Shown: one piece after another, positions 2,260 to 57,750 of the stretch
Position numbering within the stretch: position 1 is the stretch's first letter
How the letters are laid out: each line of letters begins with the position of its first letter
From: Thuidium tamariscinum
Taxonomy: Eukaryota; Streptophyta; Bryopsida; Hypnales; Thuidiaceae
Assembly (NCBI GenBank): GCA_947034885.2
Contig: OX344758.2
Coordinates: 10,666,501 to 10,730,500, forward strand
Direction: 5' to 3'
Length of the DNA: 64,000 nucleotides
The notes under the pieces: generated by a model
Databases searched by the model: none
Seen by the model: the letters and a program-made list of their open reading frames with translations, nothing else
What the model was told of the DNA's origin: nothing
Made by a program: the position numbers and the translations under genes

Positions 2260-2263
2260 TTAA

Positions 2264-3173
2264 CCCCTAAAGGACCAACATGCCTTTTTTGGCAACATAG
2301 CGATTTGGGGCAAGTACGTGTGGCTAGAGGTTTCCATATTTTGGAACCAAACTTTAATAGAAGGTGTGGACGATGAGTATCTTCAAAGCCCAATAATTTT
2401 GTGACTTTTGACTACATGGTTGAAAAGTTATCGCATAAAATGTTGTTTGTTTCTCAACTCGGGCAATTTGGGCAGATAAAAAAAAATCACTTTGGAAATA
2501 AAAATTTGAAATTGGTTTTATAGATTTATATATACATGAAAAGCTTTGAATGATTCCATTTGGATTAATGAATCAAAAGTTATGAAGAATTTTAGTTTGT
2601 GGGTAGTTATGGATTCTCTTCTCTAAAATAAACTTTGAAGTCCTTTATTTTATTCAATTTTCAATATTTTTGAACAAAAATAAAAAAATTGGGTGTAGGT
2701 TGTTTATTACAACATTTGAACCATTGGGATTGGCATTTTTCAATTCAATAAATAAATTGTACCATTTTTGTATTTTGATCATTCTCTACTTCTTTCTACT
2801 TACTACTTTTTTGTACATGTTGTACAATTCCAAATGATATGAAAATTTTCAAGCATGTGGACAACTTGAATTGGAGAATGAATCCAAAGATTTGCAACCA
2901 TTTTGGACATTTTTTCATACAAATGTGGCCTTTTGAAGTGCAACTGCTCGGATTTTCGCAATGGAAAAAAAATGATTTTTGTAACTTCAAACACTAATAT
3001 CTTGCAATCTACATGGTGGAAATTTCTGAAGTTTCTCTATATCTTCCCAAACTAGTGCACTAAAAGATCCTACAATTACATATATAAAAAAAAATTGTAA
3101 AATTTGATAGTTGTCATAGAAATGACAGTTTTGGAGCAGTTTTGGTGGAAACATAGTTGATGTCCTTTAGGGG
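2264..3173 (+). mobile_element. Family A TTAA-flanked element, copy 1 (910 bp)
   Basis: Inverted ends CCCCTAAAGGAC and GTCCTTTAGGGG are directly bounded by TTAA on both sides (2260-2263 and 3174-3177). No longer direct repeat lies outside the TTAA, so TTAA is the likely target duplication. CCC termini with TTAA targets are the hallmark of piggyBac-type transposons. The interior is A+T-rich and has no transposase, so the copy is non-autonomous. It is the best-preserved representative and shares its interior with copies at 34,970, 53,616 and 57,141. The piggyBac assignment is inferred from the ends only. Confidence 0.8.
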
Positions 3174-3429
3174 TTAAAGGTGTGGATTCCTATTGAGATC
3201 TATTGACTATAGTCATATAGATTTTTTAATTATTAAATATAATTGTAAGACCAAAGTGTCTAAACTTGGTGAAATTATAGATTTGTGTGAAGACATAAAG
3301 AGTATTGAACACAAAATATAGATATTATCCAAAGGTTTGAAAATGATATATAAATAAGAAAAGTTATAGAGTCTATATAAAAGAATATGATGGATTGTGA
3401 AAAGTTCTGGAACAAAAATCCCAAAAAGT

Positions 3430-3637
3430 GTCAAGAAATCTAAATTAATTTAATATATTATTGTTTTTCAAAAAATAGATTTCAAAAATATTATTATTAT
3501 TATTATTATTATAAAATATGATTTTCTGAAGTGGCAATCTCCCAACCATGTCAAACTGCCGATGTAGAAGGTTACTACAACCTAAGAATTTCAGATAACT
3601 CACAATCTTCTAATGCCCTCAAATCTCTCCTAATACA
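3430..3637 (-). mobile_element. Family C MITE, degraded copy with (TTA)n tract
   Basis: The right end, around 3592-3637, is the reverse complement of the family C left end (ATTTGAGGGCATTAG type, compare 41,411). Its middle has GAAGTGGCAATCTCCCAACC, matching the family's conserved GTGGCA core. A (TTA)7 microsatellite (3489-3512) sits where copy 24,743-25,026 has only ATTATTATC. The other terminus is not recognisable. Confidence 0.5.
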
Positions 3638-3912
3638 ATATTTTGTATTTTAGTGAAGGTCTTCATATTCCAAAACTTCATAATATTCAAATTCTTAGAG
3701 TCAAATGTATAATGAAAAAATAAAAAAATAAAAAATTGAAGTCAATCAAAATAGAACTCTTTAGAAACAAAATTTTGAATTAAAAAATATTGGAGCAACA
3801 ACATAATTGACATAACTAACATTATTTTGATTATTCTTTAATATGAATCTATATTACCACTACAAAATTCATTTTATGCTCTTTAGTATCTAAATCTGAG
3901 GTCTCATTTTAA

Positions 3913-4133
3913 CCCTGAAACGTCTCAATTATTTTTTGAATTTTTGCACATTTTTGCTTATAGCTTTGTACAGATATATCGTTCACCAGAATTTGATGAA
4001 TTTGGTCATTAAAGAAGGTTGTCTTTTCTAGATTCAAGTGTTCAATTTGATAAATGAGAAGTTAATTGGATGAAACAGTGCCTTGAAGCCCTCTATTCAT
4101 CGTGCAAAATATGGACGTCAGAGCGCTTCAGGG
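3913..4133. mobile_element. Family B TTAA-flanked MITE, copy 1 (221 bp)
   Basis: Ends CCCTGAAACGTC and GCGCTTCAGGG are inverted and bounded by TTAA (3909-3912, 4134-4137). Its termini match the larger element at 51,181-51,897. There is no coding capacity. Like family A it has CCC ends and a TTAA target, so the same kind of transposase probably moved both families. Confidence 0.75.
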
Positions 4134-4137
4134 TTAA

Positions 4138-7100
4138 CCAACTAATGACTAGCTATAATACTATTTTCTTGTTATTTGAGTGATAACTTTGTAAGCTATT
4201 ACCTTAATTCACAAATTAATTTTAGGATTTTAAAGAAAAATTGTAGGAGTTTGTGAATTAGTAATTAGGAGGAAGAGGAATTTACTTACAATAATGGATT
4301 TGTGAGGTTTGAGACAAGGAATAGTGAGAATTTGAGGGCAATGTTTTGGAATTTAATTAAATCAATTACAAAATATATAATGAATGCCATAGGGATTTTT
4401 ATAGGGGCAATTGGAATTTTAAAGGCTTAAAGGATTAAGTAGGAAATGGACAATTGGAAAAATGAGGTAAATGGGAGAATTGGTAGAAAAGGGGATCAAA
4501 ATTTTGAAACAAAGAATTAGCATCAAAGAGTGAATTGAAAATAGAAAGTACAAATAGAAAAATCATGAAGCTAATTAGGAAATATTTAGGAAAATACTAG
4601 GACACCAACATAGTACAAGATGGTTTAATGTAGAGAGAAATACAATAATTTAGGGGTGGAATACAAATTTAGGGTAGGGATGAATTAATACTTAGATGAA
4701 TGTTAGAATGCCAGGGAAGCAATAGAATTGAGGGCCTTGAGGCTTTATAAGCAAAGCTTAGTGCTATCCAATTCATTTGAAGATTTAATGGCCTAACAAA
4801 AAGAGGATTCGTTGGTGGCCAAGATTATTGAAAGTAAAAATTACTTTTGTAATATCTTAAATTTTTTCCAATGCTTAAAGAATTAACTTTTTTTGTATAT
4901 AATGATTATTTTTTTAAATCTCATTATTATTTTAAATACTAATTCATTTCACAAAAAATCAATTACATAATTTTTATGACAATAATTATTGGTATCTTAT
5001 CCTATTCAACTTACAAAAATCATAATGATGCCTAAATTGTTTGGCCTATATGTATACTTTTAAGTTTGAATTGCCAATTCATATTTTCTAATGCTTTGTT
5101 GATTTATCAATCCCTTATTTATTGAATATTAGAGCACTTCTACTACATGTTTTTTTTAATATGTGGAATATATCCCTTATTATTTTCTTAAATTTAGGTT
5201 AATTATTAATTTTTTTTAAAGATAATAACATGTACCATTTATGTTTTATCTTTTGTATTACATTTTTTTAATTCATGTGTATGTTATTCAAATAAGTATG
5301 AGTATAGATATACCTTTCTTAAATTTGCATTTAATTTTTGAAAATATGTGGATAAATATGAAATTTTATTATTTCAATTTATTCAAAATCTATAATCAAA
5401 GATATTAGTGTTTTTTTTTAAAGTAAGGCAATTACCTTTTTTTCTTTAGTTTTAATTACCAAACTAGAAGCATAGTATGAATATATTTGTATATTCAAAT
5501 AAACATATGCTATAGAAATTCAATTTATATATTTTAAATGAACTCAATTGATATTATATTATCCACTTGTGAAAATATTCAAAATTCTTTCCATATAAAT
5601 TGCATTGTTTATATTTATGGAGTATTTTTTTTTAATAATCTCATAGGAGGAAGCAATTCTTTCACCTTCTTTACACCATTTGTAGTTGTGGTATTCAATC
5701 AACCATTGCTTTAATCAAATTAATAGCATTCTACTAAACAATATTAGAAGAAATAGGTTTATTTTAAAAGTGAATTTTTTTTCATTGAGGCTTTATTGGA
5801 TGCTATAATATTTTAGAATACTATTATTTAAAATATATGTGATATATTATTTTCAACAACCATCTATTCTATCATTCAAGGTAATTAAAGTTAGACAATC
5901 CATCATAGACATTTTATGAATTTAAGACACTTCAAAAAGGGCTTATTGCAATCATGTATCTAAAATAAAATCATCATTAGTAAATAATTGATATTTTAGC
6001 TACAATGAAATAAATGGTGGCTACAATCAAACTTCTAATTGGCAATGATGAGTAAATTAGTAAAACACAATGAAATCTTTGTCTTTGAAGAGGAAAATAT
6101 CACAAATTAAAGTGACCATGTCAAGGCATTGATGTTGTATCCACATTAGGTAGAGATTGTAGCCATTTTAGAACAAAACACAATTATTACACATACATTT
6201 AAAGTTGGTTTTGGAAAGTGAGATAATTCTTGTGGATCAATAGGACAATATACTTCAACATTCTTAAAATATTCATTCATTTTTTGAAAATTTTCAATGT
6301 CAATCAATATTGCCTATTTATACAGTTTCTCACTATATGATTTTTGAAAAAAAGAAAAGAAACTTTTCCAAAAGTCAAGGCATTCATTTTGCCTACAATA
6401 GAGTCATCTTCTTTAATTCCTAAAGGAATAAACCCTACTTCAACAACAAATGCAATTTCATGTAAACTCTTTTGATCTCAATTTTTCAAGTGATTTTTAG
6501 AATCTTTTGTATATTAAAATCTATGAGCATCTAGTGAATATTATATTTATTTAAATTGGAGCCTAATTACAGGAACAATGCCTTCTTAACTATGAAGTTC
6601 ATGAGTCTAGCAAATAAAATCAAAATCAAAATCAAATTAATTAATATAGAGCTTTGTTCCCAATACAAATACATTTTATGTCTATATTAAAATCTTTTAT
6701 TCATTGAATTTGGATCAATGTTGCTAAGGTTACAAAGAATCTTGCTCACAACTAATTAAAAAAAATTCTAAATACAAAAAATATAAAATTTGAGAATCCA
6801 ATTTTGATAATATTTTGAATTATAATGTTTACCAACACAACAATAACATACTATAAAAGGTAGTGACATATTAACAAAAAAGAAGGAAGTGGTTAGGGGT
6901 GTATTACCTCTGAGGCATGAAGTTTGATCTTGATCCTAAAAAGCCAAAAATAGTAACCAATTTCTTCATGTTGCATAAACACAAGTTTTAGTTCCAATAC
7001 TAGTTCAATGTTCATTCAACAAAAGGATTCAAATGTTCTCAATGTAACCATAATGACGACCAATTAAAGTTGCATCATTTGGTATTTAAATGTCTAAAAG

Positions 7101-9504
7101 AGAGTTTGGCAAGTCTTCCACAATTTAAATTTTAATGTTTTATTCAATATGAAAAGCAAAAGCTTTGCAAGCCATAAAAAATGCATAATTAAGCTAAAAT
7201 ATAAATTATAATTTTTTTCACAGAAAACATGTTTTGTCTTTATAAAAAGAATCAATTTGTCCTACTTAGATTAGTAATTAAAAAAAAAGTTACATAGCAT
7301 CTTATTTATTTATCTTATCTTTGTTAGACCCTCCAATCAATTCTTTACTACAAAACATTAGAGAATCAAAATCTACAAAGCTAAAAATTAAGTTGAGAGG
7401 ATTTAAATTTACACATTGAAATAAACTATCTACATCAACATTTCATGCTAAGTATCTAATTACAACTAGAAAATCAAATTTAACAAATGGTAAAAATAGA
7501 AATATCTCGTCAAAATCAATAAATTTGCTACATAAAAAATATAAAGTTCCTAAAATCTTGGCACTAGCAAATGCTTCAAATAGGAATGTCCTTCAAAATT
7601 TTGTGTTTCCACCATGTAAAATTATTTTTTAAGAAAAAAATATTACTAAACATTTTGCATCTATTCTAGAATTATTTTTGCCAATTCCATTAGCTGGTAT
7701 AGCAATGTGATTTGGAAAAAGAGGTAAAATACTAAATGTCAATAATTCATAATCTACAAGGTCTAAAAGTTTTGAACTTTTCTCTTTACATTCTCATACT
7801 AATCTATAAGAAGATTATAAAGTTTAATATACAAAAGCAATAAATATTTGAGGTATTTTCTTTTTGTAATAGAGATGAGAGTTTTGGAAGGAGGTTCATG
7901 ATAAATTACAATTTATAAAATTTAGGTGTTAAAGTTTCAAAAGTATGAATTTATAAATTTTTTTATAGATGCTTAACAAATAATGCTGTATTTGAAACAA
8001 TTTTTTGTAATTTATAAATGATTAACTTTGATGTTTAATCATTTATTAGATATTATTGGTTTAAATTTATTTATATTTAATACTTTTGATTTCAAGTTAT
8101 TGTAAGAACATTGTTTTTTCCTAAAAAATTTGATTTCTTTAGGATTTAATTCATATTGAAGATTATTTTAAAATTCAAAGCCCACAGAAAAAACATATTT
8201 AAATAGATGAGAAAAGAGCATTGCTCTAACATTGCTAGTTTTGGCTAATAATCAAACCAAATTCAAATTAAAAATTAAAAAATTTAAATTCTTGAAATCT
8301 AAAAATTTACCTAATAAATTTTTTATCTTGTGAAATAATCAATTTAAGTAATAATAATTAAAAAAAGTATAGATTGTTGATTTAAAAATTTTATAGTTAT
8401 AAATCTTATATGATTTCGTAAGAATATTTGTATATTTGTATATATTTGAAAATCAAATGTATCAAATAAGGAAATATGTAATATTTTGATTTTTGATTTT
8501 TGATTAAATAGAATGATAATCTTTACTACTATATTTTTTTATCTCCTTTCAAATTACCAATAAAATGAATTAGAATATTGGGCCAACTCTACTAGTTCAA
8601 TTCCACCTTAGATAAGGTTAGCAATTTTGTTATTCCATTCATCTTGTATTTTCTTCTACTTTGTAAATTTTTGAAGAATGAAAATCAAATTTATTTTTTT
8701 GAATATTTTTCTAATACTAAATTTTAATTAAGAGGCACCAAGTCTATTAACCTAGTACAATAAGGTACAAAACAAACTTATTATTTCACTTTATGAACTA
8801 ATATATTGCAATCTATTTATTTGAATTTTCTAAGGAAAATTTTACAAATTGTAATACTAGTTTAGTGCAAGATCCAATAGTTGAATATGCAAAAAAATTC
8901 ATTTTTTAACATTTTTCTTTGTGCATTGGAATATGAAGTTGTAGAATTGTATTGTGGATGAAACATTGTCAAGATTCACTCATTTTTTTTTGTCTTAGAA
9001 ATAATACATTGCAAGTCAAAGAATCTAGATGCCACATTGAGATAAGGTAGATGATTAAAAATACTATACAATTGGCTCAAATTGGAGTACAATATGTACA
9101 TACAAGTGTGTGTATTGACAATTTGTGGAAATGTTGCCTTTGAAATATTTAGAAATGATCCTCATTGAAGTAGGTATGCTTACTATTGACAAAATATCAA
9201 TTGCATTTCTATATATAGGTCAAGTGTTGGAATGTGGAGCAATTGTTAATAGAATGTATTACAAAAGCAAATTAATGGCAATCTTCACCATTCACATGTT
9301 TGTAAGATGTTAAAATTACTACAAGTTTTAATGCAACCTTACATGGTTTTCATCCTCACAATGTAACAATACACAAATACATTTTGTACCCAAAATTACA
9401 TGTATTAAACAAAAAATAATGTTTTACAATGTCTTGTAGAAATTTTTAAAAATCTTTAGACTTGTCCTTAGATAAAATTAAATTTCATTAGTTTTATTTG
9501 CCTT
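4138..9504. other. A+T-rich desert, nothing recognised
   Basis: About 5.4 kb of strongly A+T-rich DNA with many short poly-A/T runs. Open frames are all under 60 codons, no terminal-repeat pair stood out, and I see no protein signature. It probably consists of old, decayed transposon sequence. Confidence 0.55.
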
Positions 9505-9836: not shown

Positions 9837-10757
9837 CACCTATAAAGGACCATTGATTCCTTAAGGGACCAAATGCATTTTGGGCAAGTTCCTATGACCT
9901 CAATTTTTGATGAAACTTCTTGAAACTTTCTTGTAAGATAGAAAAACTTGTTATTAGCTTTTTGGAAATACAACTTTTATTTCAATCGATGCCTAGGAGC
10001 AAAAGTTATGCCATTTCAAACATAATTTTAATGTCATTGAGCAAAAAATAAAGCAAAAAAAGAAATCCACAAAAAATTAAAATTAAAATTTTAGATTTTT
10101 TCCTAGAGATCACATTTTTGTCTATATGTGAAACTTTGATTCATTCCATTTGGATTATTTAGTGATGTAAAAGTTTTGAACAATCTTGTTTTCTAGGCAA
10201 TTGAACTCTTTTATGAAAAAATAACTTATAGGATTCAATTCTAAATGCAATATTCACAGAAAAAATTGTTTGACAAGGTTAAATTTTTTTATTGAAACAA
10301 TCCCACCATTGGTATAATTGTGTTTCAATTCCATCTTGGAGCTATTAGTAATGATTTATCTTTTTTTCCAATCTTAGACCTACTTCTGTTTACAATTTTT
10401 TAAAGAATGATAATTAGTTTGTTTTTTTAAATTAAATTTTTTTAACTCAATTATTTAGCACAAAAAAATATAGATTCAAAGCCCATAGTACAAAAATATT
10501 CTACAAATGGCAATCAAAGTCATCTAATATTTTAGGTGAGTGTTAAATTATTTTTTTCAACTTCAAGTATTAATATCTTCTAATTAATCTATATAGTCAA
10601 ACTTCATGAAATTTTTTCCACATGATTAGAGACTAGTAAAGTGAAAGATCATCGGTTAGATTCTAAGAAAAAAAATTATTTTGTTTTCTAAGGTGAACAT
10701 AGCCTAAGTGATAGTTTTGAGAGGATTTTGACAGAAAATGGCCTTGGTCCCTTAGGA
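9837..10757 (+). mobile_element. Family A element, copy 2 (worn, ~920 bp)
   Basis: It aligns with copy 3 (38,214) from end to end. Shared blocks include AAAGGACCATTG at the left, a 'TCAATCGATGCCTAGGAGC' stretch near 9982 (TCAATCGGTGCCTGAGAAC in copy 3), and GGTCCCTTAGGA at the right. Both termini and the TTAA flanks have mutated, so its boundaries are approximate and it is an older insertion. Copies 2 and 3 form a subfamily distinct from copies 1, 4, 6 and 7. Confidence 0.65.
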
Positions 10758-13700
10758 AATACTAGTAACCTTCAAACAAAAATCATTAATTAAGATATAT
10801 AGATCATATCCATTTGGTCATGTTTACCTTTACACTAATTAATATTTATCGATAAATACTGAAACTAAGAATTCATGATTCTTTCTAAAATTGCTAAATG
10901 TTGAAGGTAGAAGGTTTTGCAGTATTTTTTAAATGCCTTAATAATCCAAAGTTTTGATATTAGTCATTTAAAAGATCAATTACTTTATTTAGTTCTTAAA
11001 GTCATTTAATGACATTAATTCTCAAAATTTATTATATATATTAGAAAGATAAAATGAGGATCAGCTAAGAAATCTAGATAGATGAAAAAACAATCTCTGT
11101 TTGTGCAATGCATGCTTAAATTCTTTCACCTTCTAAATTTTGAATTCAATCTTAAAACTTAATGAAATAAAAATATATATTGTCTTATAGCATTCTTCAA
11201 TTTGTAGGTGGGTTTATGAAAACTAATTTCAATAATTGATCAAAGAATTTTTTGAAATATTTCCTTGCTTTTTCATTATTTATGAGTAAATAGGAATAGA
11301 AATGGAATCGTTGTAATTATTCATATATATAATAAAATCAAAATCTTTTATAGCCTTTCATTGCTTCCTAAAGTAATCATTGTGTGTTTGTCTTAGAACT
11401 ATAGAATGACCTTTTGTGCACACATTAGTTTATGTATTTCATGAAATTGGAATGAAAACAAGATAACTTGGTGATTTTGTCTATTTTATTTTATATTTTC
11501 ATATTATCAATATGATTGTGTAAAGATAGTTTTAAAGAAGGAAATAGAAAGAAGATTGTATGCATGACCCATATTTTGGCCTTTTCATTCCCTGTGCTAT
11601 AGTGAATTTAAAAAAAATCTTCTATGTTGTAGAATTAATAAGATGATAAAATCTACTATAATACAACACACCTTCACATTCCCAAAATATCATACACCAA
11701 TTTAGGTAAATTCATACTGCAATTATTTTCCTTATATATTTGCAAATGAATCTTGCAAATGGAGTAGAAAATATTGAGATATGTTGTTTGGTGACATAAA
11801 GGCATACAAGAATTAATTTCAATTATCTATTGGTATAACATTTTTTTGAATTAGAATTTGGTTGTGCGAGTTGAATAAGGTACAATTTGATTGAACATCT
11901 TTGTTTTGAAATCATTATCAGGAACATTAAATGATAATACAACTAGCATATTAGGAAGGAATATAGATATTGAAAGACTTTAATTTGTATTGCTTACTCA
12001 ATAATTATGAATTATGGCCTTTAAGCTTAAAAGCCTGAGCCCCATAAGCCTAAGAGACTGTACACCTATGGTTTAAATGTTGATATTATAAAAATCTTTT
12101 ATGATTGTATTGTAATTATATTATAGATACCAATATTATAAATATTGATGTTATAAGCACCTTTGATGATTGTAGGATATCTACTTATATATATACTCAA
12201 GACTCTTATGCTTGCATTTTCATGCTCACATACTAGGATTGACTTTTGTGGTTGCATTAAAAAATCATTACAATGCACAACACTTTCAATCTACCATTAT
12301 GCTATTTTTCATGGATATAACATAGCTATGGGATCATATAGAATTTAATATAGTAATACAAGTGCCATAATTTACCAATTAATTAATAGGAGATTACAAT
12401 ATGTTCATGAAATTCAATTTGTACCCCACCTATACTTGTATCTTTTTGGAACCTATTGTTTTTGCAATCAATGTAGAATATTGAGATTCTATTCCACATA
12501 AATATTTGTATATGGACATTAATATATTTTACATTTGGATGTATTCATATATCATATACCTTATATCTTTATGTCTATATATTTGGTATATGTATAAGTA
12601 TTTTATATATTGTATTATGCAAATATTATATTTGAAATCCATGGCAGAGATTCAATCATAAATAATTTTTTGTGCAATCCAAGTTGATGGGGTTGTATAG
12701 AGAGGATAACACTTTAGGATTATGCAAAGTATCTTACTACAATTAGGAATAATTTGCTAAGAAGTTGAATCAAGTCTTCCAATCCCAAAATCTTTAGATC
12801 TTTAAATAGCTTCCTGTTGGCTTATCTTATAATGGTTATAAATAAATTCAAAGGTCAAAGTACGTGATAAGAAATCATAGGTTTTGGACAAGTAAAATGG
12901 GATGGGCAAACCACAAGTTGAACTATTCAAAAGATTGACTCTTAAACTTCAAATCCATGATAACCAACAAAACCGTGTCTCTCCAATAGGAATGACAAAA
13001 AAAAAAGACCATATGGATGATCAATCTCACTTTGTTGCCACAAATACAAAACAAGGTTATTATTTGATACCCACATAACCCTGAACAATGTTTACAATAT
13101 AGAAATGAAAACAACAAGCATTCAAAACCAGTCAACAATAACAATAAAAAGACAACAAATCTCCAAAACTAGCAAGTAATAACAAGCCGCAAGCCACAAG
13201 CTATAATACATGAGTCTTCAATCTTCAAGTCTTTAAAAGAATCGCAAATCTAAATCCATTTTCACTATATTCTTCTCAAATTAAAAAAAACAATAGACAT
13301 TCTTTTACTTCACTACTTGTAATTTTTGCAATTTTTCATCAAACTAAGGAATTTATAGCTTTTCAAAAAGTTAACAAGGTCTCCTACCTTCACTAAGAAT
13401 TTCACTTGCAATTGATTTATCAAGAAAAAATTATAAGTTGATAAGGTTTTGATTTCCACAAAGTTTCAGTTGCTTTAAGTGATGAATCTTTAAAAAGCTA
13501 ACAATTTTTTTCTAATGCTCCTAAATTTCAAAGAGATAAATAGAAAATACAAACTATAGTGGTTGCTTGAATCTTTGCTCTTCTTTGTAGGGTGGTAGTA
13601 GACCCCCCCCCCCCCTCACATACTTATAACTTTTTGCTTTCAATTCCAAATTAGACAAATAAAATAAAATAAATTTTTTTTGTAATGGCAATGACCACAG

Positions 13701-14399: not shown

Positions 14400-16270
14400 G
14401 CCTTTGAGAGTCATTTTTCTAAAGAAATGGCTCCTTGAATCTAAGGTTTGAATGAAGCTTTCTATAGCACCATTGCACCAAGACTCTATTTAATGACAAT
14501 TATGACATGCTAGAAAAAATTCAAGAAGAGTCCCTTAATACTAAAAAAAAGCCTCCTTTGATCCAAAGACCCTTCTATGGAACCAAGACTCTATGTAATG
14601 ACATTTTAAGAAAAGAAAAGAAGAGTCCTTTACAACTAAAGAGGGCTTCTTGAACCTAATGAAGAGCCTTCTTTGGATGTGGAAGAAGGGCTCTTCAAAT
14701 TGAAGGAGCCTTCTTTAGAAGAACCTTTAGACACCAAACAAGGGCTCCTTGGATCCAAGGAGCCTTCTTGGACAAAGCCTTTTGGCACTAAAAAAGGCTC
14801 ATTGGATTCAAGGAGCCTTCTTTGGAGAATCCTTTGCACGAGGAAAGGGCTCCTCAAAATTCAAGGAGCCTTCATTGAATTCTGAAAAGCCTTCATTGGG
14901 TTCCAAGGAGCCTTCTTTAGAAGAGCCTTCTGGCACCAAAAAGGGCTCTTTGAAATTCCAAAAGCAGGTTCCATAGAGCCTTCCTTGGAAGAATCCTATA
15001 GCACCAAAGAAAGGCTCATCGGACCAGAGGAGCCTTCTTTGGAGAGTCCTTTGACAACCAAAAAAAGACTCTTCAAATTCGAAGAGCCTCTTTGGAAAGT
15101 TCTTTGGCACCAAGAATGGGCTCTTGGAATCCAAGGAGTCTTTTTGGGGTTTTGAGGAACCTTCATTCGGTTCCAAGGAGCCTTCCTTGGAAAAGCCCTA
15201 TGGCACCAAAGAAAGGCTCTTTGGCTCCATTTTTAGACAAAGCTCTTTGGCACCAATACAAGCTCTTTACATTTGAAGAGCCTTTCGGAACAAAGCTCCT
15301 TGGCACCAAGAAAGGCTCCTTAGATTTGAGGTGCCTCTTTAGAGAGTCCTTTTGTTGTTTTGCACCAAAAATGGGCTCCTCAGAATCCAAGGAACCTTCC
15401 TTGGATTTTGAGGAGCTTTCATTGGGTTCCAAGGAGCCTTTTTTGGAAGAGCCTTGTGGCACCAAGGAAAGGCTCCTCGAATCCAAAGAGCCTTTTTGGA
15501 CAAACCTCTTTGGCACCAATGGTACCAATATAAGCTCATTGGATCTAAAGAGCCTTTTGGATGAAGCCCTTTGACACCAAGAGAGGCTCCTCAGATTCGA
15601 GGAACCTCTTTGGAGAGTCCTTTGGTAGTTTGGCACCAAGAATGGGCTCCTTGGAATCCAAGAAGCCTTCCTTGGATTTTGAGGAGCCTTCCTTGGGTTC
15701 CAAGGAGCCTTCTTTGGGTTTTGAGGGGCCTTCCTTGGAAGAGCCTTTTAGCACCAAAGAAAGGCTCCTCAGATTCGAGGAGTCTTCTTTAGAGAGTCCT
15801 TTGGCACCAAAAATAGGCTCTTCGGAATGCAAGGAGCCTTTCTTGGGTTCCAAGGAGCCTTCTCTAGAAGAACCCTATAGCACTAAGGAAGGGCTCTTTT
15901 GATCTGAAGAGCCTTCTTGGACAAAATAATTTGGCTTCAAGAACCGTTCTTTGGATTCAAAAAACCTTGTTTGGAGAGTCTTGGACACCAAAAAAGGGCT
16001 CCATGGAATTCAAAGAGCCTTCATTGGATTCTAAGGAGCTTTTTTTGAAAGAGCTCTTTGGCACCAATGAAGGGCTCTTCAAATTCAAGGAGTCTTTATT
16101 GGTCTTAATGGAGGCTTTCTTGAAGAGCGTTTTGGCATTTAAAAGGACTTTTTGAAGTGAAGGACCAATCTTTGGGTTTGGAAAACCTTCATGAGGTTCT
16201 GCGAAGCTATCTCAGGAAGATCCTTTTGGCACCAAGGAAGGCTCTTCAAATTCAAGGAGCCTTTGTCCTA
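14400..16270. repeat. 21-bp-periodic minisatellite open on both strands, main block
   Basis: The block is built from GGCTCCTTGGA / TCCAAGGAGCC motifs interspersed with TGGCACCAA. In its cleanest part (about 15,660-15,760) GGAGCCTT recurs exactly every 21 bp, giving a seven-residue repeat such as KEPSLGS. Because the period is a multiple of three, long frames stay open on both strands: 15,092-15,574 (+, 160 codons) and 15,163-15,639 (-, 158 codons) overlap, and there are others. Adjacent motifs are near-palindromes, so single strands could fold into many short stems. The left 250 bp are degraded. I favour a noncoding minisatellite; a translated low-complexity protein is not excluded. Confidence 0.75.
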
Positions 16271-34969: not shown

Positions 34970-35877
34970 CTCCTAAAGGACCAACTTATTAAATTTGGCA
35001 ATGTGGTGATTTTGGGTAGGTACGTGCGATGAGAGATTTCCATATTTTGGGCCCAAATTTTAATGGAAGGTCAAAATGAAGAATGCCTTTCATGTATACT
35101 AAAAATCAAGACATTTGGAAATATAAATCAAAAGTTATGGCCTAATATGTTGTTGTTGATTGAAAATGGGTAGTTCAAGCAAATTGAAAAAATAGATTTT
35201 CTTCAAAACAAAAAGATGAAATTGATTTTCTTCATTTATGTATGCGTGGAAAGCTTTAAATCATTCCATTTTGATCAATAATTCAAAAGTTATGAGGATT
35301 TTTTGTTTGCAAACAGTTATGGATTCTCTACTCTAAAATAAACCTTGAAGTCCTTTATTTTATTCAATTTTAAAAAATTTAAAAATTTAGGATGTAGATT
35401 TTTTATTACAACATTTCAACCATTAAAATTGGCATTTTTCAATTCCATAAATAATTTCTTAACAATTTTGTATTTTGTATTATTTGCTATTGTTTTTTGC
35501 TTACTATTTTTTCCTATATGTTGTACAATTCCAAATAATTTGAAATTTCTTAGCCAAATATCCTACTTGGCCTAAACAATGAAACTAAAGAAACATAAGT
35601 GTTTTGGACCATTTTTAATATGATTGTTGCCTTCTAAAATGCAATTGCCCTATTTTTCATAGGATGAAAAAAATTATTTTTGAGCATTCAAACACTAATG
35701 TCTTGCAATCTATATGGTGGAAAACTCTGAAATTTTTTCCCATGTTCTCTAACCAATTTACTAAAGATCCTACAGTTACAAATTTGGAATTTTTTTTTAA
35801 TAAAGAATTGGTATTGATACTAGAAATGGCAATTTTAGATCGTTTTTAGAATAAACATACTCAAAGAACTTAAGGGG
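34970..35877 (+). mobile_element. Family A element, copy 4 (908 bp)
   Basis: The left end CTCCTAAAGGACCAAC is preceded by CTAA (a one-base change from TTAA), and the right end TTAAGGGG is followed by intact TTAA (35,878-35,881). The interior is colinear with copy 1, for example GATTTCCATATTTTGGGCCC near 35,035 and TATGGATTCTCT near 35,318. No transposase frame. Confidence 0.8.
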
Positions 35878-35881
35878 TTAA

Positions 35882-36769
35882 TTTGCCAATGAAGCAAAAA
35901 CAAAAGTATTTAATTTTTTCCCTTTGGATTTTTTTTCCTCTTTTTAATGGTGATCGCTCTTTCTAAAACCAACCAACCAAAGGTATGTATATTAATTACC
36001 ATCATTCTAATTTTTCTAGAGTCACACTATTTTCAAATTAGTGCAACCTATGAACTCCTAAATGCCCAAGGCAACAAAATTTAGTGTTTGCAAAACTTTG
36101 AAGTAATTTAGTAAAACCTAACCAAGTTGCTATTTTTAGTAGTTTATATTTTTGGGAAGTTTTTTTTGAGGTCTAGTTTCATTGTCAAAAATTCGATTTG
36201 GGAAATGAATGATAGTGATTTTTCTATTCAAGATTTTGTGCAAGGGTACCCATTGCTATCTTGACTTTCTATAGTGTTGAGAGCTCTTGAAAATGAGCCT
36301 CAAATACACTAGATCTTGGAGAAAAAATTACATTCAAAATTCATCTACAAAAATTGTAGAGTAGATTTTGAGAAGCCATAAATTGATTGGCGTTATGCAT
36401 GTTAGGCCATTTAACCTCATATTTTATTGGTCACCAACTTTTTAGATTCGACTTGCAAAAAGAGGATAAAAAGACTTCACATCAATTTTGTAGTTTTAAC
36501 ACCCTCATGGTCAAACAATATAATCTTTCTTCTTCTTCTTTTGAACAAATGGACAAATTATAATCTTTCATTTCATAAGTGCTATTGTTGTGTTTCTTTT
36601 CCTATGTGATCTTTAACATGTTTAGTTTGAATTTGTACAGTAATGATTCCAAAAGAATTGATACAACTTATCAAAATGTTGGCATTTTGTTCAATGTAGA
36701 GCAAACTCCAAGAAGCTCAAGACAGGCCTTGGGCATTTGGGGATTAATTTAGGGGTTAATATAGCATAC
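35882..36769. other. Spacer, nothing recognised
   Basis: TTTAGGGGTTAA at about 36,749-36,760 resembles a family A right end, but the sequence before it is unrelated to the family. Confidence 0.5.
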
Positions 36770-38213: not shown

Positions 38214-39113
38214 CCCCTAAAGGACCATTGTCCCTTCGAGGGACAAATGTGATTTCGGGCAGGTACCTATGGGTTGAATTTTTGTCCTGATGTTTTGAAA
38301 CTTTTTTTTAGAGATAGAAAAACTGAATATCTTCGTTGGGATATTATTATTTTTTCAATCGGTGCCTGAGAACAAAAGTTATGTCCAAATAAGCTCAAAA
38401 CAGGGGATGGCAGGCAGTTTGGGCAGCAAAGAAAACTTTGAAAATTTATTTTTTTTGAATTTTTTTCCTTATAGATTATATTTTTGTCTATTTAGGAAGC
38501 TTTGATTCATTTCATTTGGATTTGTTATGAGAAAGTTATGGACATTCTTGTTTTTTGGGCAATTAGAGCATCTTCTTGAAAAAAATAACTTGTAGGATTC
38601 ATTTCTGAATGCAATTTCTGCAATTTTTCAAATTTTTTTTCATGGTTTATTTTACTTGCTAGAATAATCTTACCATTAGGATTAGTGCATTTTAATTCCA
38701 TCTAAAAGATATTAATATTTTAGATTTTCCTTCTACTTAACAATTTCTTTAAGTATGAAAATTATTTTTTTTGAATTATTTTTTTAGATTCTCAATTCAA
38801 TTCTGCACTATACAAATTTAAAGCTCAAAACTTTTTAGTGAAAATTTTTTAAGTTAAAAATGTTCAAAGTCAAAAAATCCAGTCCCGCAATGTATTGAAA
38901 AACTTGTTTTTTCCTACTTTAAACGCAAATATCTTACAATCTATGGGGTCAAAAAATTTGAAATTTTTTCCACATTTTTTTATACTAATGAGGTGTAAGA
39001 TCTTGTAGTTAGATGTGGAAAAAACAACAACTTAAATGTTTTTTTACTCTTTGCTATGAAAATGGTAATTTTCAATGTTTTTGGGCAGAAAACAAGGCTT
39101 AGTCTTTTAGGGA
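38214..39113 (+). mobile_element. Family A element, copy 3 (900 bp)
   Basis: The left end CCCCTAAAGGACCATTG is preceded by TTAA (38,210-38,213); the right end GTCTTTTAGGGA is followed by TTAA (39,114-39,117). The interior matches copy 2 better than copy 1, defining a second subfamily. No transposase frame. Confidence 0.8.
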
Positions 39114-48170: not shown

Positions 48171-48731
48171 CCCCTAAAGAACCACACGACCATTGAACGT
48201 ACACAAGAATTCTCATGTTGGTTCCTACAAAGTCATTTTTGGTCAGATTTATCTTGAAATTCGAACACAACGTCAAAACATGTACCCCCTTCATAAAAAT
48301 CTAATTTTTTTTCAATTAGGTGCCCGGATCAAAAGTTATGCTGCCTTGAATTTTCTAAGCAGCTCGAGCAGCATTTGCAAAACTCCTTCATTACTTTTGA
48401 AATTTGGCAAGTTTGTAATTTATATGATGTAAGATGCAAATGTAAGAAAAAATAACCATGCGTAGTGTAAAAATCTCATTCCAAAACAAGTTAAAGATTG
48501 TTGTCCCTATTGGCAAGGTCAAAAAAAACTTTTTCATCTAACTTTGAATGTTATAATCTTTTAATCCATGTGGTCAAAGTTTCTGAAGTTTCTTCCACAC
48601 ATTCCTACAGTAGTCTAGTTCAAATTTGTATGTTTGAATCTTTAAAAACAACTTAAATTTTTTTTCCACTGTCCTAAAAAGTGGTAATTTTTCACAATTT
48701 CTGTCCTAAATGTGCCTCTGTCCTTTAGGAG
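48171..48731 (+). mobile_element. Family A element, copy 5 (561 bp, short)
   Basis: The left end CCCCTAAAGAACCAC is preceded by TCAA (a one-base change from TTAA); the right end GTCCTTTAGGAG is followed by TTAA (48,732-48,735). Shared interior blocks include AGGTGCCCGGATCAAAAGTTATG and, near the right end, TTTTAATCCATGTGGTCAAA. About 350 bp of the usual interior is absent. The 79-codon frame 48,193-48,432 is not conserved in other copies. Confidence 0.75.
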
Positions 48732-48735
48732 TTAA

Positions 48736-49719
48736 CTTTCAAACAATGCTCCTGCTATTCTTTGGCAATAAACGACAAAGAATCTTTCTATGTAGGATAG
48801 GAGTGCAATTGTTTATCTTTTGAATTTTGTGCAAAAAAGAGAGATCATGCACAATAGTTTGACCTCCAATGTGCACTTAAATTTATTTGTTTTAAATGTA
48901 GAAGATGATGTCATGCAATGCTAAAAGGGATGATATCCATGGTCACCAGCCAAACATTCAACATTGAAGGGCTAATTTCATTTTCATTCCAATCTTGATC
49001 ATTTCCATATTGAGAATTGACCAAATATCAACTTCATGTCCTGATCTTTCAAATTTTTTTTCTAATTTTGCTTTAGTCAAGTAGAGAATGTCATTGTGCA
49101 ATGCACTCCAAATTCAGTACAGTTCTCTTGATTGTTCCCCGAATTTTCTGTCCTTCATGTTGAGAGTTTGATTGCAACCTCATCTGCATGGATCAATTGT
49201 GTCTGTGGACATCAATTGAAGGCTTCTTTGTCATCAGTTCCCACTGATTGAAAGTTGCTGCAATTTAAAAACAGAGAGAGGAAGAATGTCTGAAATAGAT
49301 CCTGGTTTGAAAAACAAGTTTGACACGACTAAGGTCAAAACACCCATTTCCGCATGTGTTCTTTGTAGTGGACTGTAGATTCACCTGAATGCGTACTAGA
49401 CTTCCCTTAATGTGTTTGCCATATGTATGATTGTAATTTGTTGACACAACTAAAGGACACATAGGAAAATTTGTTTGACTGAGTGCTGATTTTCTCAGGG
49501 TTTAGTTTCAGGGGCACATATAGGATGGTTCTACATGTCTAGGGAGCCAACACTTTGAAAATTTGTAGAAATTACTTATTATATCTGAAAAATCTTTTTT
49601 TTTTTGAATATTCATGATTTTCACTCGCTAATACTAGAAAAATATCATTTTTTAGAAAACATTGCCTTCAACTATGCTGAATTCCTTATTTGGACGGTTT
49701 TGGGTGCTTCCACTGTAAG
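48736..49719. other. Spacer, nothing recognised
   Basis: Base composition drifts toward the G+C-richer island that follows. The minus frame 49,265-49,462 (65 codons) is not recognised. Confidence 0.45.
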
Positions 49720-50007: not shown

Positions 50008-50029
50008 CATTCATTTTGTTGCATAAATC

Positions 50030-50880: not shown

Positions 50881-50956
50881 CTGTTGCCGACAGCTTGGGA
50901 TTGATGATCATGATTTGCAAGAGTATTTCTTTTTTAATAGGTCTTAGATTGGCAAC

Positions 50957-51148
50957 ATGTTCTTGGAGTCCAAATTAGGCATCAACCAGTCGTTCAGTGA
51001 TTTAGTTCTGCAACAAGATTTTAAAGATGAGATAGAGTTTTATATGATCTGCGTGGAATCTTTCTGTGTCTGGTCTTCGAGGCGATTGTTGATCTTTTCA
51101 AGTTGTAATTGCCAAGGCATGTGGATGGATTTTTGCCTTCTAAAATGA
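50957..51148 (+). CDS. Weak 63-codon open frame, unrecognised
   Basis: The frame starts MFLESKLGINQSFSDLVLQQ, continues with an acidic helix-like DFKDEIEFYMICVE and ends in a Cys/Trp-rich tail. It is preceded by a pyrimidine run ending in AATAG, an acceptor-like context at about 50,940, but an in-frame TAG lies between that site and the ATG. The base composition is mildly G+C-enriched. It matches no family I know and may be a lone exon or chance. Confidence 0.15.
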   Translation: MFLESKLGINQSFSDLVLQQDFKDEIEFYMICVESFCVWSSRRLLIFSSCNCQGMWMDFCLLK

Positions 51149-51180
51149 GGAAGTAATATTTTGGTGAACTTGGATTTTAA

Positions 51181-51897: not shown

Positions 51898-51901
51898 TTA
51901 A

Positions 51902-52035
51902 TTTGGTTAGAATTGATACAACAGATATACAATAGAACTGGAATCGATCCAAGTAACAACTCTTGGATTCATGAAATAGTACAAGTCAACTATTTGAATT
52001 CTGGTTCTAATAACAAATGTTGAAGATTTTGTATA
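51902..52035. other. Spacer between family B and family H elements
   Basis: Nothing recognised. Confidence 0.5.
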
Positions 52036-52234
52036 TGCCATAACATTCAGTAGCATTGGTTGGCACTGCCTTTGGAGGGTGTAGAATATTCAAAAACTCC
52101 AACAGTGTTTCATCAGTAACTACTAAAGGAAGTTGACAGGTGAAAGATGGAGAGGTTGCTGGGGTGTGGAATATGCCACACCCTTCCCTGTAGAAGGAAG
52201 GCTGTGCCACAACATGCTACTGAATGTTATGGCA
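52036..52234. mobile_element. Family H MITE, complete, 199 bp
   Basis: The ends TGCCATAACATTCAGTAGCA (left) and its exact reverse complement (right) extend to about 35 bp with few mismatches. GTGTGGAATATGCCACAC-like inner palindromes follow. TGTA occurs just outside both ends (52,030 and 52,236) and may be the target duplication. The superfamily is not certain. The minus frame 52,007-52,210 is an artefact of the element. Confidence 0.75.
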
Positions 52235-53611
52235 ATGTACTTATTTCAATTTTCTGTTGAAACACTTAGGTTCTTTTCTTTGTTTTAGAGGAAACAATTG
52301 ATATCCTATGCAAAGATTCTTTTGTTATAGATATAACTTCTAACTTTATTTTTTCATTATAAATCCAGGTATAAATTAGTATTGAAACTATTACTTTCTT
52401 CTTCATGAAATTTGAAAGTGAGAAAAATTGTAAGCAAGAAGGGCCAACAATTTAACTCCAACATATATGCACAAAATAAAAGTAAATTTTGGTGCAAAAC
52501 TTGAATTGAGAGCTTATGTCAATGTATGTTGCCAAACAAAGAAGAAAACTAGGCTTGTGGAATCTTAAGCAAGTGTCTCTAAGCAAGTTCATCAAAATAA
52601 CATTTTGGAAAATTTGTTTCTTTCTTTCATCAAACGTTGTAGTCAAGAACACTCTACAACATTGCAACGGCCAAAAATTTGCAATTGTCAACACAAAAGA
52701 GAGAAAAACACCAACACGACCTTGTTCGAGAGCAATTCCCTACCATTCCCTCAATGAATGTTTTTGAGGCAGAATTGGCAGTTGTTGCTCATTTTAGATT
52801 TTGAACTTCTTCTAAAAATGCTTGGATCGGTGGAGCTAGACTACTGTAACATTAAGGTATATCAAGATTGAGAATTGCATTTGCAATAAGCTTCAATCTA
52901 ATTTGGCAATAGTTTTTAAAAACATCTAGAGAAGATTAGAACAAACATAAAAAAGAAACTAGATTTGTATCACTAGCAAAAATTGTGGATCAAAATCTTC
53001 TAAAGCAGCACAACAATATCAATTCATGTCCAAATCAAGCTATCTACTAGCAAAAACATAGACCTTGTAGGCTATAAAAAGATGTGTGAGAAGACCCTAT
53101 ATGACAAATTTGACTAGTTGAGGATTTGATACAACAAAATTTGTTGATTTGGGCATTGTTTTCAATTAGTGTTTGTCATTATAGAGACCTTATCACATCC
53201 TTCCAAGTCAATGAATCATCTATGTTAAAAAAAATCTATGGAGTATAGACATATAGACCATAGTTTGTGGGGCCAAAAAGAAAAACTAGATCTCTAAAGT
53301 GAAAAATGTAGACATCCAATCAAGGGTGGGGTAAAACAAGCATTTTAACATAAAACAAGGCAAGGATTTATTGTAATTACTATCTTTTTAGGAATCTAAG
53401 TAGGTCACATAAAAATGTTTTTTTTTTCAATCTAGTAATATTTTGTCCTACATTATGATGTGCATGTATATAATTTAAACACCTTAGTTATCCAAAATTA
53501 ATTAAAAGTGAATGGTGGCACAAAGGCTATACTTTTGCATGTTCATCCACATTTTTAATGGACCTAATGTACATCCAATTATCTCTACATGCTCATTCAC
53601 ATTGAAGTACA
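52235..53611. other. A+T-rich spacer, nothing recognised
   Basis: The frames at 52,452-52,694 (minus) and 52,516-52,767 (plus) shadow each other and are not recognised. Confidence 0.45.
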
Positions 53612-53615
53612 TTAA

Positions 53616-55619
53616 CCCCTAAAGGACCAAATTGCCTTTTTTGGCAACATAGTGATTTCAGGCAGTTCATTGCAGATGGAGTTTTTTGATTTTGTTTTTT
53701 TTAATTCTTACACAACATGTGCCCAAGGAGTAGCTTTAAGGTCCAAAAAATTTCATAACTTTTGACTACATGGTTAAAAAGTTATGACATGATATGTTCT
53801 CTACTCGGCGGGCAACCCGGTCAAAAAAAAACTTCTTTAAAAATTACTTTTTTGAAAAATTTAAATTTAAAATTGGTTTCTTTGATTTTTATCTAAGTAT
53901 AAAGCTGTGAATCATTCCATTTTGATTAATAAGTCAAAAGTTATGAGGATTTTTAGTTTGAAGTAGTTTCGGCTAGTTATAGAATCTCTACACTACAAAA
54001 AGTTCGAAATTCTTTATTTAATTCAATTTTTAATATTTTGGAAAAAAATAAAAACATTGGGTGTATATTGTTTAACACACCATTACAACCATTGGGATTC
54101 TCTTCTTTTAACTCTATAAATAAATTGTTAATAATTTAGTATTTTGGCTCATTTTCTACTTCTTTCTACTTACTATTTTTTCCTATATGTTGTACAATTC
54201 CAAATGATCTGAAAATTTTCAAGAATGTAGCCAACTTCAATTGAAAAATGAATCGAAAGAGTTGCAATCATTTTGGACATTTTTCCACACAAATATGGTC
54301 TTCTGAAGGGCAGCTACCCGGATTTCCGCAGTGGTAAAAAAATGATTATGTCAACTCCAAATACTCTACTCTCTTTTTAAGTTTAGTAGAAGTTGGCATA
54401 CAAGTTCTTAGTGAAGTTTCCTTAGAAATATTTAAAATTAAGAAAAGAATATAGAAGTCTCACAATAAGAAACAAGTTAAGTGATAATTTACCCACTTCT
54501 TAACTATCTCACTGTTAGATATTTAATAGTGCCTTCCAAGCTAATCAATGTTCAATTTAATTTATTTCATGTTTATATTTTTTTATGTTTATTTATTTAT
54601 CTATTTTCAGATGAAAAGCACAAATGCACCTCAAGTTAATACAATGAGAAGGGATGAGGGATGAGAGCTCCTATCATTGTGAAAAAAGAGGGCAGCTGAC
54701 CTCCTTTCACTTGAATAGGCGTCACAACTTCGTATTGAGGCCAAATGGAGTGTAACTTGACTTTTTGGATTCCTCACTTACACTTATAGATCCTCACCAA
54801 TTTTCAACCTAATATTTATAAGGAGTTAAAAGATGTGGAGGAGAAATGAAGGCTAAGAAAAGAAGGCATCTACACTACAACCCGTAGTAGGAGTCTAAAC
54901 TTCTAGCCTTCAAACACTCACAACTTTCTCTCATTAACTCCAAATGAACTAAATTAAATCATTTCAGAAACTAGAAAGCAATATTTACCTCTTCCAAAAA
55001 GTTTCATTTAAAAAGAGTCAATACATAAGAAGTTATGCCCGGTCAAAGTTTCGGCCAATGATACTCATTGGCAGTTGATCTCTTCCTATTAAAACTTCAA
55101 TAACTTCTACAATACCTATTCAAATCAGATGGATCTTAGCTTTTTAGAGAGCTAAAAACATAATGCTTCTACCCTCCAAGTTTCAATTTCTATTAAAGAT
55201 CTCCCTAAAAACTACAGATGAGAGAAATTAGAGGAATGGTGGAAGAAATCTCTCACTTCCTAACCTCAACTTCTACTATCTTTAAACCACTTTGAAATGA
55301 AGATGAAGAGGAGGAAGGGTGTAAGATGTAAGAAAGAAGGAGGTGAATTGAAGGCCAAAGTCAAGGCGGGAATTTGGAGTCAAGGCTTAAAGAAAAAGAA
55401 AAGGATGGTCAATAAGAAAAGATGAAATTTTTTTGTCAATTCAAACACTAATATCTTGCAATCTACATGGCAGAAATTGCTGAAATTTTTTCCACATCTT
55501 TTTAAACTTATGCTCTAAAAGATCCTACAGTTACTTTTGTTCAAAAAAATTTGGTAGTTGTCTAAAAATGACAATTTTGAAGCGATTTTGGTGAAAATAT
55601 AGTCAAAAACCTTCAGGGG
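53616..55619 (+). mobile_element. Family A element, copy 6, split by an insertion
   Basis: The left end CCCCTAAAGGACC is preceded by TTAA (53,612-53,615); the right end CCTTCAGGGG is followed by TTAA (55,620-55,623). The left 740 bp and the last 180 bp align with copy 1, and together they equal a normal ~0.93-kb element. The extra ~1.07 kb between them is foreign (see 54,366-55,433). No transposase frame. Confidence 0.8.
54366..55433. mobile_element. ~1.07-kb insertion inside family A copy 6, class unknown
   Basis: Comparison with copy 1 shows continuity broken at TTCAAACACTAATATC. Imperfect direct repeats flank the extra DNA: TGTCAACTCCAAATACT (54,349-54,365) and TGTCAATTCAAACACT (55,434-55,449), a possible target duplication of about 16 bp. 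The insert is less A+T-rich than the host element, has a GGCAGCTGACCTCC stretch and a purine-rich right part, and shows no long open frame, poly(A) tail or matching terminal repeats. Confidence 0.55.
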
Positions 55620-55623
55620 TTAA

Positions 55624-57136
55624 ATATAAAAATTTAAAATTATACACATATTTAATTTTTTTGGTTCTTAAATTTTCTATTAAAAATATTTTAATATCCA
55701 AAATTGAATCATTTTATTCCTAGTATAAATGCATAAACAACTTAGTATTTATATACATTGTAAAAATATAAAGAATTTAATATTTATATTCTATAATTTA
55801 ATTTATATATATAAAGAACAAAATATCTTTTAAATAAATGAATTTAATTGAGGATTTATAATTAGACAATTCAAAAAAATTGAATTGTATTACAACTACA
55901 AGTATAATCAAATTGAGACTTTTAGTAATCAATGATTTAAATTATAGATTTTCAAAGAAAAAGTTATGTAAAGCTCTCACTATAAATTGAATTACCATGA
56001 TTCCATTGCAATATATTATGGCCTCTATTTATTGAAACAAAAATTATGCAACCCTTTAAATGTTGATTAGGAGTTTCAAATTTTTTTATCTATCTTGAAA
56101 TATCAAATATAGTCACAAATGAATTTCTATAGATCATGAATAATTTAAGTTATTATGATCAACTATTGTATAAAAATATTTATTTTCTAAATGAAAATTT
56201 AAAATTTTATTATTTCTATTAAAGCTACATATCTTAATTTATTAAATTAATGATTATTATAATAAATACTATACAAAATTCTTGAGCATTAAAAAACATG
56301 CCTCCAACATCCTTTATAAATAAAAATTACCATCTAAATATTTATGTATTTATGACCTCACAAAATGTTTTAAAAGTTAAATTTGTTAAATATAAAGTCT
56401 CTATCACAATTTTTGTTATTTTGAATTATAAATGTAAAAAATGACAATTTAGTTTTAAAAAGATTGTGGTTAATTTTCTCAATAAATTTTCATTTTAATT
56501 GAAAAATGATTTGTTAGTGTGTAAAAAATATAAGTATTAAAAACACTAATAAAATGATTATTGATTTAAAAAATATGTCATTATGTTTTCAATAATATTC
56601 CATTTGTAGGATTAAATTAATTACTGCACTATTTTTTTGTTGATAAAATTTCAAAATTAATTTTGATATTTTGATTGCAAAATTTAATTACTATAAATTT
56701 AATTAATTCATTATTATAAAGTTGTTGTATCTTAGAAGTGGGTTAGTAAAAATCATAACCGATTAGAAATCTTAAAACTAAGATTATTGAAATTTTTTGA
56801 AAATATGAAATTGAAATTTTTTTACATCTCAAGATCTCTTAATCGTGATTTTTAGATATCAAAGTTTGTAAATTTGTAAAATCATCATTAATAAATTAAC
56901 AACAATCTAAAAGTTGAAAAATATAAATTTTAATTTTATGAAACTTTAGGTGATTCAATTGAATATTTATTAATTGAATTTATTAAATCTATAAGTTGAT
57001 ATTTTTTAAATTATTTTCTTAGTAAATTGAAATTAAATTGTCTTTACTTCTAAATTTGTATTGTTTACCAAATTACAAGTGCTACAATTAAATTTTAAGG
57101 GATCAAAATTAAATTAGTTGATGATAGATGGATGTA
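55624..57136. other. Extremely A+T-rich spacer
   Basis: About 1.5 kb of near 80% A+T DNA without open frames or repeat pairs; nothing recognised. Confidence 0.6.
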
Positions 57137-57140
57137 TTAA

Positions 57141-57750
57141 CTCCTAAATGTTTTCTTGCTACATTTTTACCAAAAACACTTCAAAACTACCATTTCTAAT
57201 TGAAGTACTAAATTTTAGAAAAAGAAAACATTTTTTTCACACATGTAATTGTAGGATCTTGTAGTAAGTTAGTTTGAAAAGATTTGGAAAAAATTTCAGA
57301 ATTTTTCTCCTTGTAGATTGCAAGATGTTAGGGTTTGAATCAACACAAACAAATTCTTTAGTCCTATTAAAAATCATGCAATTGGACTTTACAAGGTCAC
57401 AGTTGTATGAAAAAAGTTTGAATTGTTGGTTACTCTTTGAATTTATTCTTCAAGGGAAGTTGGCTACATGCTCAATAAATTTCAAATCAATTGGAATTGT
57501 ACAACATCTAGGAAAAAATTAGTGAGTAGAAAGAAGTAGAAAATGATTCAAAATACTAAATTGTAAGAAATTTATTTATGGAATTGAAAAATGCCAATCC
57601 CAATGGTTAAAATGTTATAATAAACAATCTACACCCATTTTTAAAATTTTTTCCAAAAATATTAAAAATTGAGTTAGATAAAGGATCTCAAACTTTTTGT
57701 AGAATATATATTTAAATTATAACTACCGATAAACTACTCCCAAACTGAAT
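57141..57750 (-). mobile_element. Family A element, copy 7, truncated (~610 bp)
   Basis: This is the only copy in reverse orientation. CTCCTAAATG is preceded by TTAA (57,137-57,140); the sequence then follows the reverse complement of copy 1 (TGTAGATTGCAAGATGTTAG, ATGCCAATCCCAATGGTTAA) to about 57,750. The left third of the element and its terminus are missing. The 82-codon frame 57,274-57,522 lies inside it and is not conserved. Confidence 0.75.

Follow-up and report, generated by a model that had tools for sequence, protein, structure and literature searches.

Probable piggyBac-type miniature inverted-repeat elements and related transposase genes in the genome of the moss Thuidium tamariscinum

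The piggyBac element of Trichoplusia ni (transposase structure 6x67) and piggyBat (9c0f) insert at TTAA and duplicate it, have CCC-type ends and encode a DDE_Tnp_1_7 transposase with IDE, DN and GVDxxDQ motifs. In piggyBac the transposase acts as a dimer, nicking at the CCC ends, forming TTAA hairpins and freeing the element; the donor is repaired without a scar, and the ends are joined to staggered cuts made in a fresh TTAA. Here we describe seven copies of a non-coding, TTAA-bounded element in a 64,000-bp stretch (the window; contig C10, 10,666,501-10,730,500) of the 363-Mb genome, in 19 contigs, of the moss Thuidium tamariscinum. A sequence-only reading had interpreted them as piggyBac-like miniature inverted-repeat transposable elements (MITEs), and this was supported by a TTAA duplication, by transposase genes in the genome and by end homology to a coding element on contig C7 (locus L077). 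In all probability the copies are non-autonomous piggyBac MITEs of the moss nuclear genome, about 924 bp when complete, which arose by internal deletion and were mobilised by a piggyBac transposase.

Compared with T. ni piggyBac, the host is a moss, and six moss elements with both apparent ends read were 4.0-5.9 kb, against the 2,472 bp given in PMC10140906. Coral piggyBac CMITEs, as described in PMC2872659, are likewise non-coding TTAA-flanked derivatives accompanied by piggyBac-like autonomous elements in the same genome; their host, however, is an animal, and the moss MITEs are about 924 bp (MITEs in general are given there as usually <500 bp) with end homology to a coding element aligned directly. 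Tourist (PIF/Harbinger) and Stowaway (Tc1/mariner) MITEs resemble the moss elements in being high-copy, non-coding and bounded by terminal inverted repeats, but have different transposases and make 3-bp TTA/TAA or 2-bp TA duplications (PMC10004981), whereas the moss MITEs make 4-bp TTAA duplications. That paper includes PiggyBac among angiosperm MITE superfamilies, grouped by internal sequence, terminal repeat and target; the moss MITEs share the superfamily name and add coding elements and end homology.

The sequence-only reading had called piggyBac rare or unreported in land plants. "Unreported" was too strong, since PiggyBac was listed among plant class II superfamilies (PMC10794571), among angiosperm MITEs in the paper cited above and in a fern repeat table with 1,230 pieces (PMC6890710); "rare" stood in the sense of seldom reported. 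Plants were named in general terms as having piggyBac in PMC10140906, and five plant superfamilies were listed in 2008 without it (PMC2528002). No paper on piggyBac elements in a moss was found among the matches listed from the openly licensed literature; the moss paper ranking first was rejected, as it used "piggybacking" in another sense. The moss elements thus belong to a superfamily already known, in a host lineage where it was not expected.

All seven copies were present in the window at the positions first reported, with left ends as described (Table 1). Leaving aside worn copy 2, exact TTAA preceded four of six left ends (2264, 38214, 53616 and 57141, with CTAA at 34970 and TCAA at 48171) and followed all five readable right ends (after 3173, 35877, 39113, 48731 and 55619). 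The terminal sequence CCCCTAAAGGACC, allowing up to three mismatches, occurred 22 times in the window, compared with 6.75 +/- 2.74 in shuffled sequences, none of 100 shuffles reaching 22. In the whole genome exact CCCCTAAAGGACC was found 5,353 times (2,742 + 2,611), against 3 for a reversed-pattern control, and therefore at least 2,677 copies carry one or more perfect ends. It was found at both MITE ends, as an inverted repeat starting with CCC, and the collected copies had CCCC ends and TTAA in common, as had been anticipated.

Distinct MITE types existed, as had been proposed, though more than the two subfamilies first recognised. The main types, A and B, aligned in a single orientation (score about 140-170, against 14-24 when reversed), with about 64-71% identity over the whole length and many gaps. 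A nucleotide search with one copy of each, in which the best 40 candidates were scored, yielded 39 other near-complete copies per type, with identities among the matches listed of 96-97% (type A) and 91-93% (type B). No near-complete copy was identical to either query, and therefore these two queries showed no brand-new MITE insertions.

A PF13843 (DDE_Tnp_1_7) profile search of the contigs gave 659 candidates in a first look, of which 116 were scored. All 116 exceeded the cut-off (best 5.7e-80), so that the genome holds at least 116 matches, distributed over contigs C1-C10 (C1-C9 being 25-54 Mb). Many of the frames were open, others had one to three stops, and stop-to-stop open frames around the domain reached 1,214 codons. 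Thirty loci were fetched and fell into 14 groups at 80% identity, with a median between-group identity of 44%; by simple pattern, GVDxxDQ was seen in 30/30, the first-Asp motif in 29/30 and the DN motif in 26/30. The autonomous elements read started with CCCC or CCCT. One family, represented by 11 copies (L020-L030) 99.9-100% identical over about 3.98 kb and differing in outside sequence, had TTAACCCTGAAACGCC with TTAA at the sequenced end in all 11 and ...GGCGTTTAGGGG followed by TTAA at the far end in both copies fetched there, giving a length of 5,088 bp, TTAA at both ends and an open frame of 1,023 codons. Because these copies are near-identical, the piggyBac superfamily appears to have moved recently. 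Both apparent ends were also read in four further elements, which were TTAA-bounded and 4,039-5,938 bp long, with tips such as CCCCTAAACGCCC, CCCCTTAGCG and CCCTAATACG.

L077 linked the MITEs to these genes. Between its ends lay a stop-to-stop frame of 774 codons (3483-5804 of the locus), whose sole Pfam match was PF13843 (2.1e-79) and which matched the solved structures of piggyBac (6x67, 9e-33) and piggyBat (9c0f, 2.1e-22). In the alignment with 6x67 the IDE, DN and GVDxxDQ motifs corresponded, and Asp 268, 346, 447 and 450 of that chain, which we take to be the catalytic residues, were aligned to Asp; the catalytic residues are thus conserved in the moss protein. Relatives of this transposase at 60-67% identity lie at C7:17,557,740 and C2:5,660,472. 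The right end of the element may be at 7066 or 7078, as a second TTAA-bounded G-run lies 12 bases further out.

Similarity of the MITEs to transposase loci extended beyond the tips. Against L077, with E-values that hold for that one 8.5-kb stretch, the MITE at L052:21-945 (tips CCCCTAAAGTCCC) matched over its positions 1-203 (71%, E 5e-29) and 625-925 (75%, E 4e-56). Type-A copies ended by CCCCTAAAGGACC (L052:1505-2427, L059 and L070) matched over about 140 bases (65-70%) and 258-301 bases (68-71%), the window copy at 38214 over 135 bp (67%, E 4e-13, for its first 135 bp) and 283 bp (60%), and worn copy 2 (from 9839) at both termini, over 145 bp (63%) and 317 bp (61.5%). Of 24 distinct candidate elements compared, 11 matched at both ends, 11, type B among them, at the right end only, one at neither, and one false pairing at the left only, over 33 bp. 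Ends were thus shared on both sides by type A and on one side by type B, which is tied to type A by the whole-length alignment, and for this reason the MITEs have the appearance of piggyBac elements with internal deletions.

Several observations weigh against this descent. Type-B copies, including that at 2264 (186 bp, 64%), matched L077 at one end only; L077 was only about 60-75% identical to the MITEs; and the middle (about 205-620) of the four MITEs tested gave no match to it. The L077 tips (CCCCTAAATGCCC) were related to, not identical with, those of the MITEs, and CCCCTAAAGGACC was the own end of none of the 30 transposase loci inspected, 25 of which extend only 1.5 kb beyond the domain and five of which had longer flanks. 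Thus, of the partner that the sequence-only reading had proposed to look for, piggyBac transposases were found, one of them within MITE-homologous ends, and an exact terminal-repeat match was not found in the 30 loci.

This missing exact cognate is what favours the view that the transposase genes stem from contamination or from an unrelated invader, and that some other autonomous family, so far unseen, is the one to which the MITEs belong. We regard that as very unlikely. The 116 matches are spread over C1-C10, including C4, which also carries a LEAFY gene (PF01698, 1.6e-27); its DNA-binding part (...PKMRDYVHCYALHCLD...) has Asp, presumably the moss form, at a position where His is presumably usual in other land plants, which suggests a moss host. 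In addition, one copy of the 5,088-bp family (L022) directly adjoins a MITE end, precisely at its TTAA, and the end homology runs over 140-300 bp. Besides this LEAFY gene, five further SAM_LFY matches exceeded the cut-off (C9:9824638, C1:35710485, C8:9874880, C1:42521344 and C2:21540582).

TTAA preceded 4,780 of the 5,353 exact CCCCTAAAGGACC termini (89.3%), against 0 for the reversed-pattern control. With TAA fixed, the outer base was T in 4,780 of 4,898 cases (97.6%) and another base in 118, the window background of T being 35%. Canonical TTAA flanks were present in 18 of 28 element records; because TTAA is palindromic, canonical copies cannot distinguish a duplicated target from sequence owned by the element. 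Termini with variant flanks can be read in this respect. The exact termini flanked by TTAT (49) or by ATAA (52) included four pairs facing each other 300-1,500 bp apart and enclosing elements of 785-927 bp; all four had direct ATAA/TTAT repeats, none inverted. By chance at most 0.48 such pairs would be expected, and four or more would arise with a probability of about 0.0015.

The genome was also searched for empty relatives with the joined flanks of 19 copies, the best 40 of 3,514 candidates being scored. The 19 were the 28 records minus nine, which were left out because the pairing was false or doubtful, because the copy was the worn one of the window (two records) or because the flanks were short (two copies). 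The L063 copy has an empty paralogue on C4 (L080), 98% identical across the junction and with exactly one TTAA; this is compatible with precise excision or with a pre-insertion duplicate. For the L005 copy twelve empty relatives (83-89%) crossed the junction without extra bases, with CTAA in 11 and CTAG in one. That none of the twelve has TTAA is a point against TTAA as the target; yet TTAA lies on either side of the filled copy, so that the L005 copy that was struck probably carried a one-base variant making TTAA. The remaining 17 sites gave no relative spanning the junction among those best 40 candidates: 11 matched both of their own flank halves, four one half and two (L066 and the window copy at 2264) nothing, and at the L058 site a weak 87-bp match (84%) touched the site without spanning the junction. 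Such missing relatives mean little, because only the best 40 of the 3,514 candidates were scored. The sequence-only reading had held that TTAA itself is the target and had named empty sites lacking TTAA as evidence against it; in the letter that is what the L005 site gave, while the L063 site keeps one TTAA. The 4-bp direct variant duplications and the single-TTAA empty site bear the claim out: TTAA is a true 4-bp target duplication.

These data also bear on two readings of the flanks, both of which we consider extremely improbable. If the copies were PIF/Harbinger (Tourist-like) MITEs, the target would be a 3-bp TTA/TAA and the outer base would be owned by the element. Tourist elements are plant MITEs with TTA/TAA duplications (PMC10004981), and TTAACCCC can be parsed in several ways if the site is the palindrome TTAA. 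The four variant copies, however, have 4-bp and not 3-bp direct repeats, the empty site keeps a single TTAA, and the element to which the ends belong encodes a piggyBac transposase, transposase genes having been sought in the genome with the PF13843 profile. Alternatively, TTAA might be part of the element's inverted repeat, the real target being another sequence or plain TA. The palindrome leaves this open in the 18 canonical records, and the CTAA or CTAG of the L005 relatives would agree with it; it is opposed by the direct orientation of all four variant pairs, by the one TTAA kept at the empty L063 site and by the strong preference for T as outer base.

Sola3 elements also duplicate TTAA. 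A Sola3 origin of the MITEs would therefore give the same target length and sequence, but its probability is negligible, as the transposase between the homologous ends is a PF13843 protein aligning with the piggyBac and piggyBat structures, in a genome searched for transposases with that profile. Tc1/mariner Stowaway elements, with a 2-bp TA duplication, were rejected on the 97.6% outer T and the 4-bp variant duplications.

As non-autonomous piggyBac MITEs, the copies would have originated when elements like the piggyBac still found on C7 lost the transposase gene by internal deletion, and amplification in trans would have followed. A transposase of the piggyBac type, produced from another place in the genome, would recognise the CCCCTAAA... 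ends, excise the MITEs at TTAA and insert them at a second TTAA, whose four bases would be duplicated. By analogy with piggyBac, excision may pass through hairpins and be repaired without a footprint, and particular transposases may be paired with particular MITE subfamilies. The MITEs and the transposases are presumed to have been active.

The wider proposal is that a land plant hosts diverse, still mobile native piggyBac elements, comprising at least 14 transposase groups, the 5,088-bp family and several MITE families bred from these native elements; we hold this to be somewhat better than an even chance. If so, land plants may here have their first known example of a naturally active piggyBac, and its native plant transposases could be a source of a plant-adapted, footprint-free gene-transfer tool in place of the one now borrowed from insects. 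Thousands of piggyBac MITEs together with near-identical autonomous copies in a moss are direct evidence for a land plant, and the timing and route of piggyBac entry into bryophytes become testable.

Table 1. Coordinates of the MITE copies and related features (window positions unless a contig is given)
Feature	Position	Strand	Ends, flanks and remarks
MITE copy 1, type B	2264-3173	+	910 bp; CCCCTAAAGGACC...TGTCCTTTAGGGG; alignable over its full length with 924-bp copies
TTAA target duplication left of copy 1	2260-2263		
TTAA target duplication right of copy 1	3174-3177		
MITE copy 2, worn, type A	9837-10758	+	flanks now non-TTAA; 912-914 bp aligned with complete A copies at ~73%
MITE copy 3, type B	34970-35877	+	CTAA left, TTAA right (35878-35881)
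Extra TTAA element of CCCCTAAATGCCC-ended sister family	36055-36742	-	flanks TGAA and (A)TTAA
MITE copy 4, type A (L005 subfamily)	38214-39113	+	TTAA both sides; 86% to L005 copy
MITE copy 5	48171-48731	+	internally shortened to 561 bp; TCAA left, TTAA right
MITE copy 6, type B	53616-55619	+	pieces 53616-54365 and 55430-55619 around foreign insert; TTAA both sides
MITE copy 7, type B	57141-57736	-	single terminus, TTAA then CTCCTAAATG; truncated near 57,736
Coding element L077 (extension of L018)	C7:1,353,000-1,361,500		TTAA then CCCCTAAATGCCC at 1928; GGGAACTTAGGGG then TTAA ending 7070; 5,135 bp between

The closest other genomic copy to copy 1, among the matches listed, was 93% identical. 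Copy 6, contrary to the earlier description, reaches 55,619, with ~1.06 kb of other DNA in between; similar GTCAACTCCAAATACTCTA and GTCAATTCAAACACTA border the insert (54366-55429) left and right, as an old target duplication would. The element at 36055-36742, absent from the first list, was 80% identical to one at L075:6299-6935 over 690 bp. A second TTAA-bounded G-run lay ~12-13 bases beyond the apparent right end both here (36743-36759) and in L077 (7066-7082). The L077 tip with TTAA had 1,498 exact genomic matches, and among the first 100 places seven facing pairs enclosed about 545-650 bp, suggestive of a second MITE family.

The MITE subfamilies, about 64-71% identical with about 31-54 gaps, were nevertheless mostly 915-926 bp long (L005, L048-L072), and 14 of 18 facing CCCCTAAAGGACC pairs from the first 100 places on C1 spanned 907-926 bp; this hints at a length constraint across divergent subfamilies, a hint weakened by the choice of only 900-930 bp copies for the subfamily comparison. 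Two TTAA elements with the same tips were palindromic over the whole length (L007:773-1513, 741 bp, 92%; L049:1505-2200, 696 bp, 67%), and foldback forms therefore exist beside the 924-bp MITEs. Some MITEs were apparently nested in, or adjoined, other MITEs (C5:3098517-3100314, C2:7920057-7921399 and C3:23361489-23363042).

When 23 candidate elements taken from other loci, including a few false pairings but not the window's own five records, were compared with the window, five worn MITE pieces were also seen, at 6418-6843, 7735-7926, 8593-8972, 58458-58723 and 59437-59590; a 96-bp match at 49407-49502 was rejected as a MITE piece, as it resembles the flank of a copy. A Pfam scan of eight of the 18 open reading frames listed for the window gave no match (0/8), and an Rfam scan gave none at gathering scores. 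At 14686-15975 lay an imperfect tandem array with periods of about 21, 42, 53 and 271, open on both strands; its reverse-strand frame 15163-15747 had no Pfam match, and the array translates like SLEPNEGSS / KEPFLVP.

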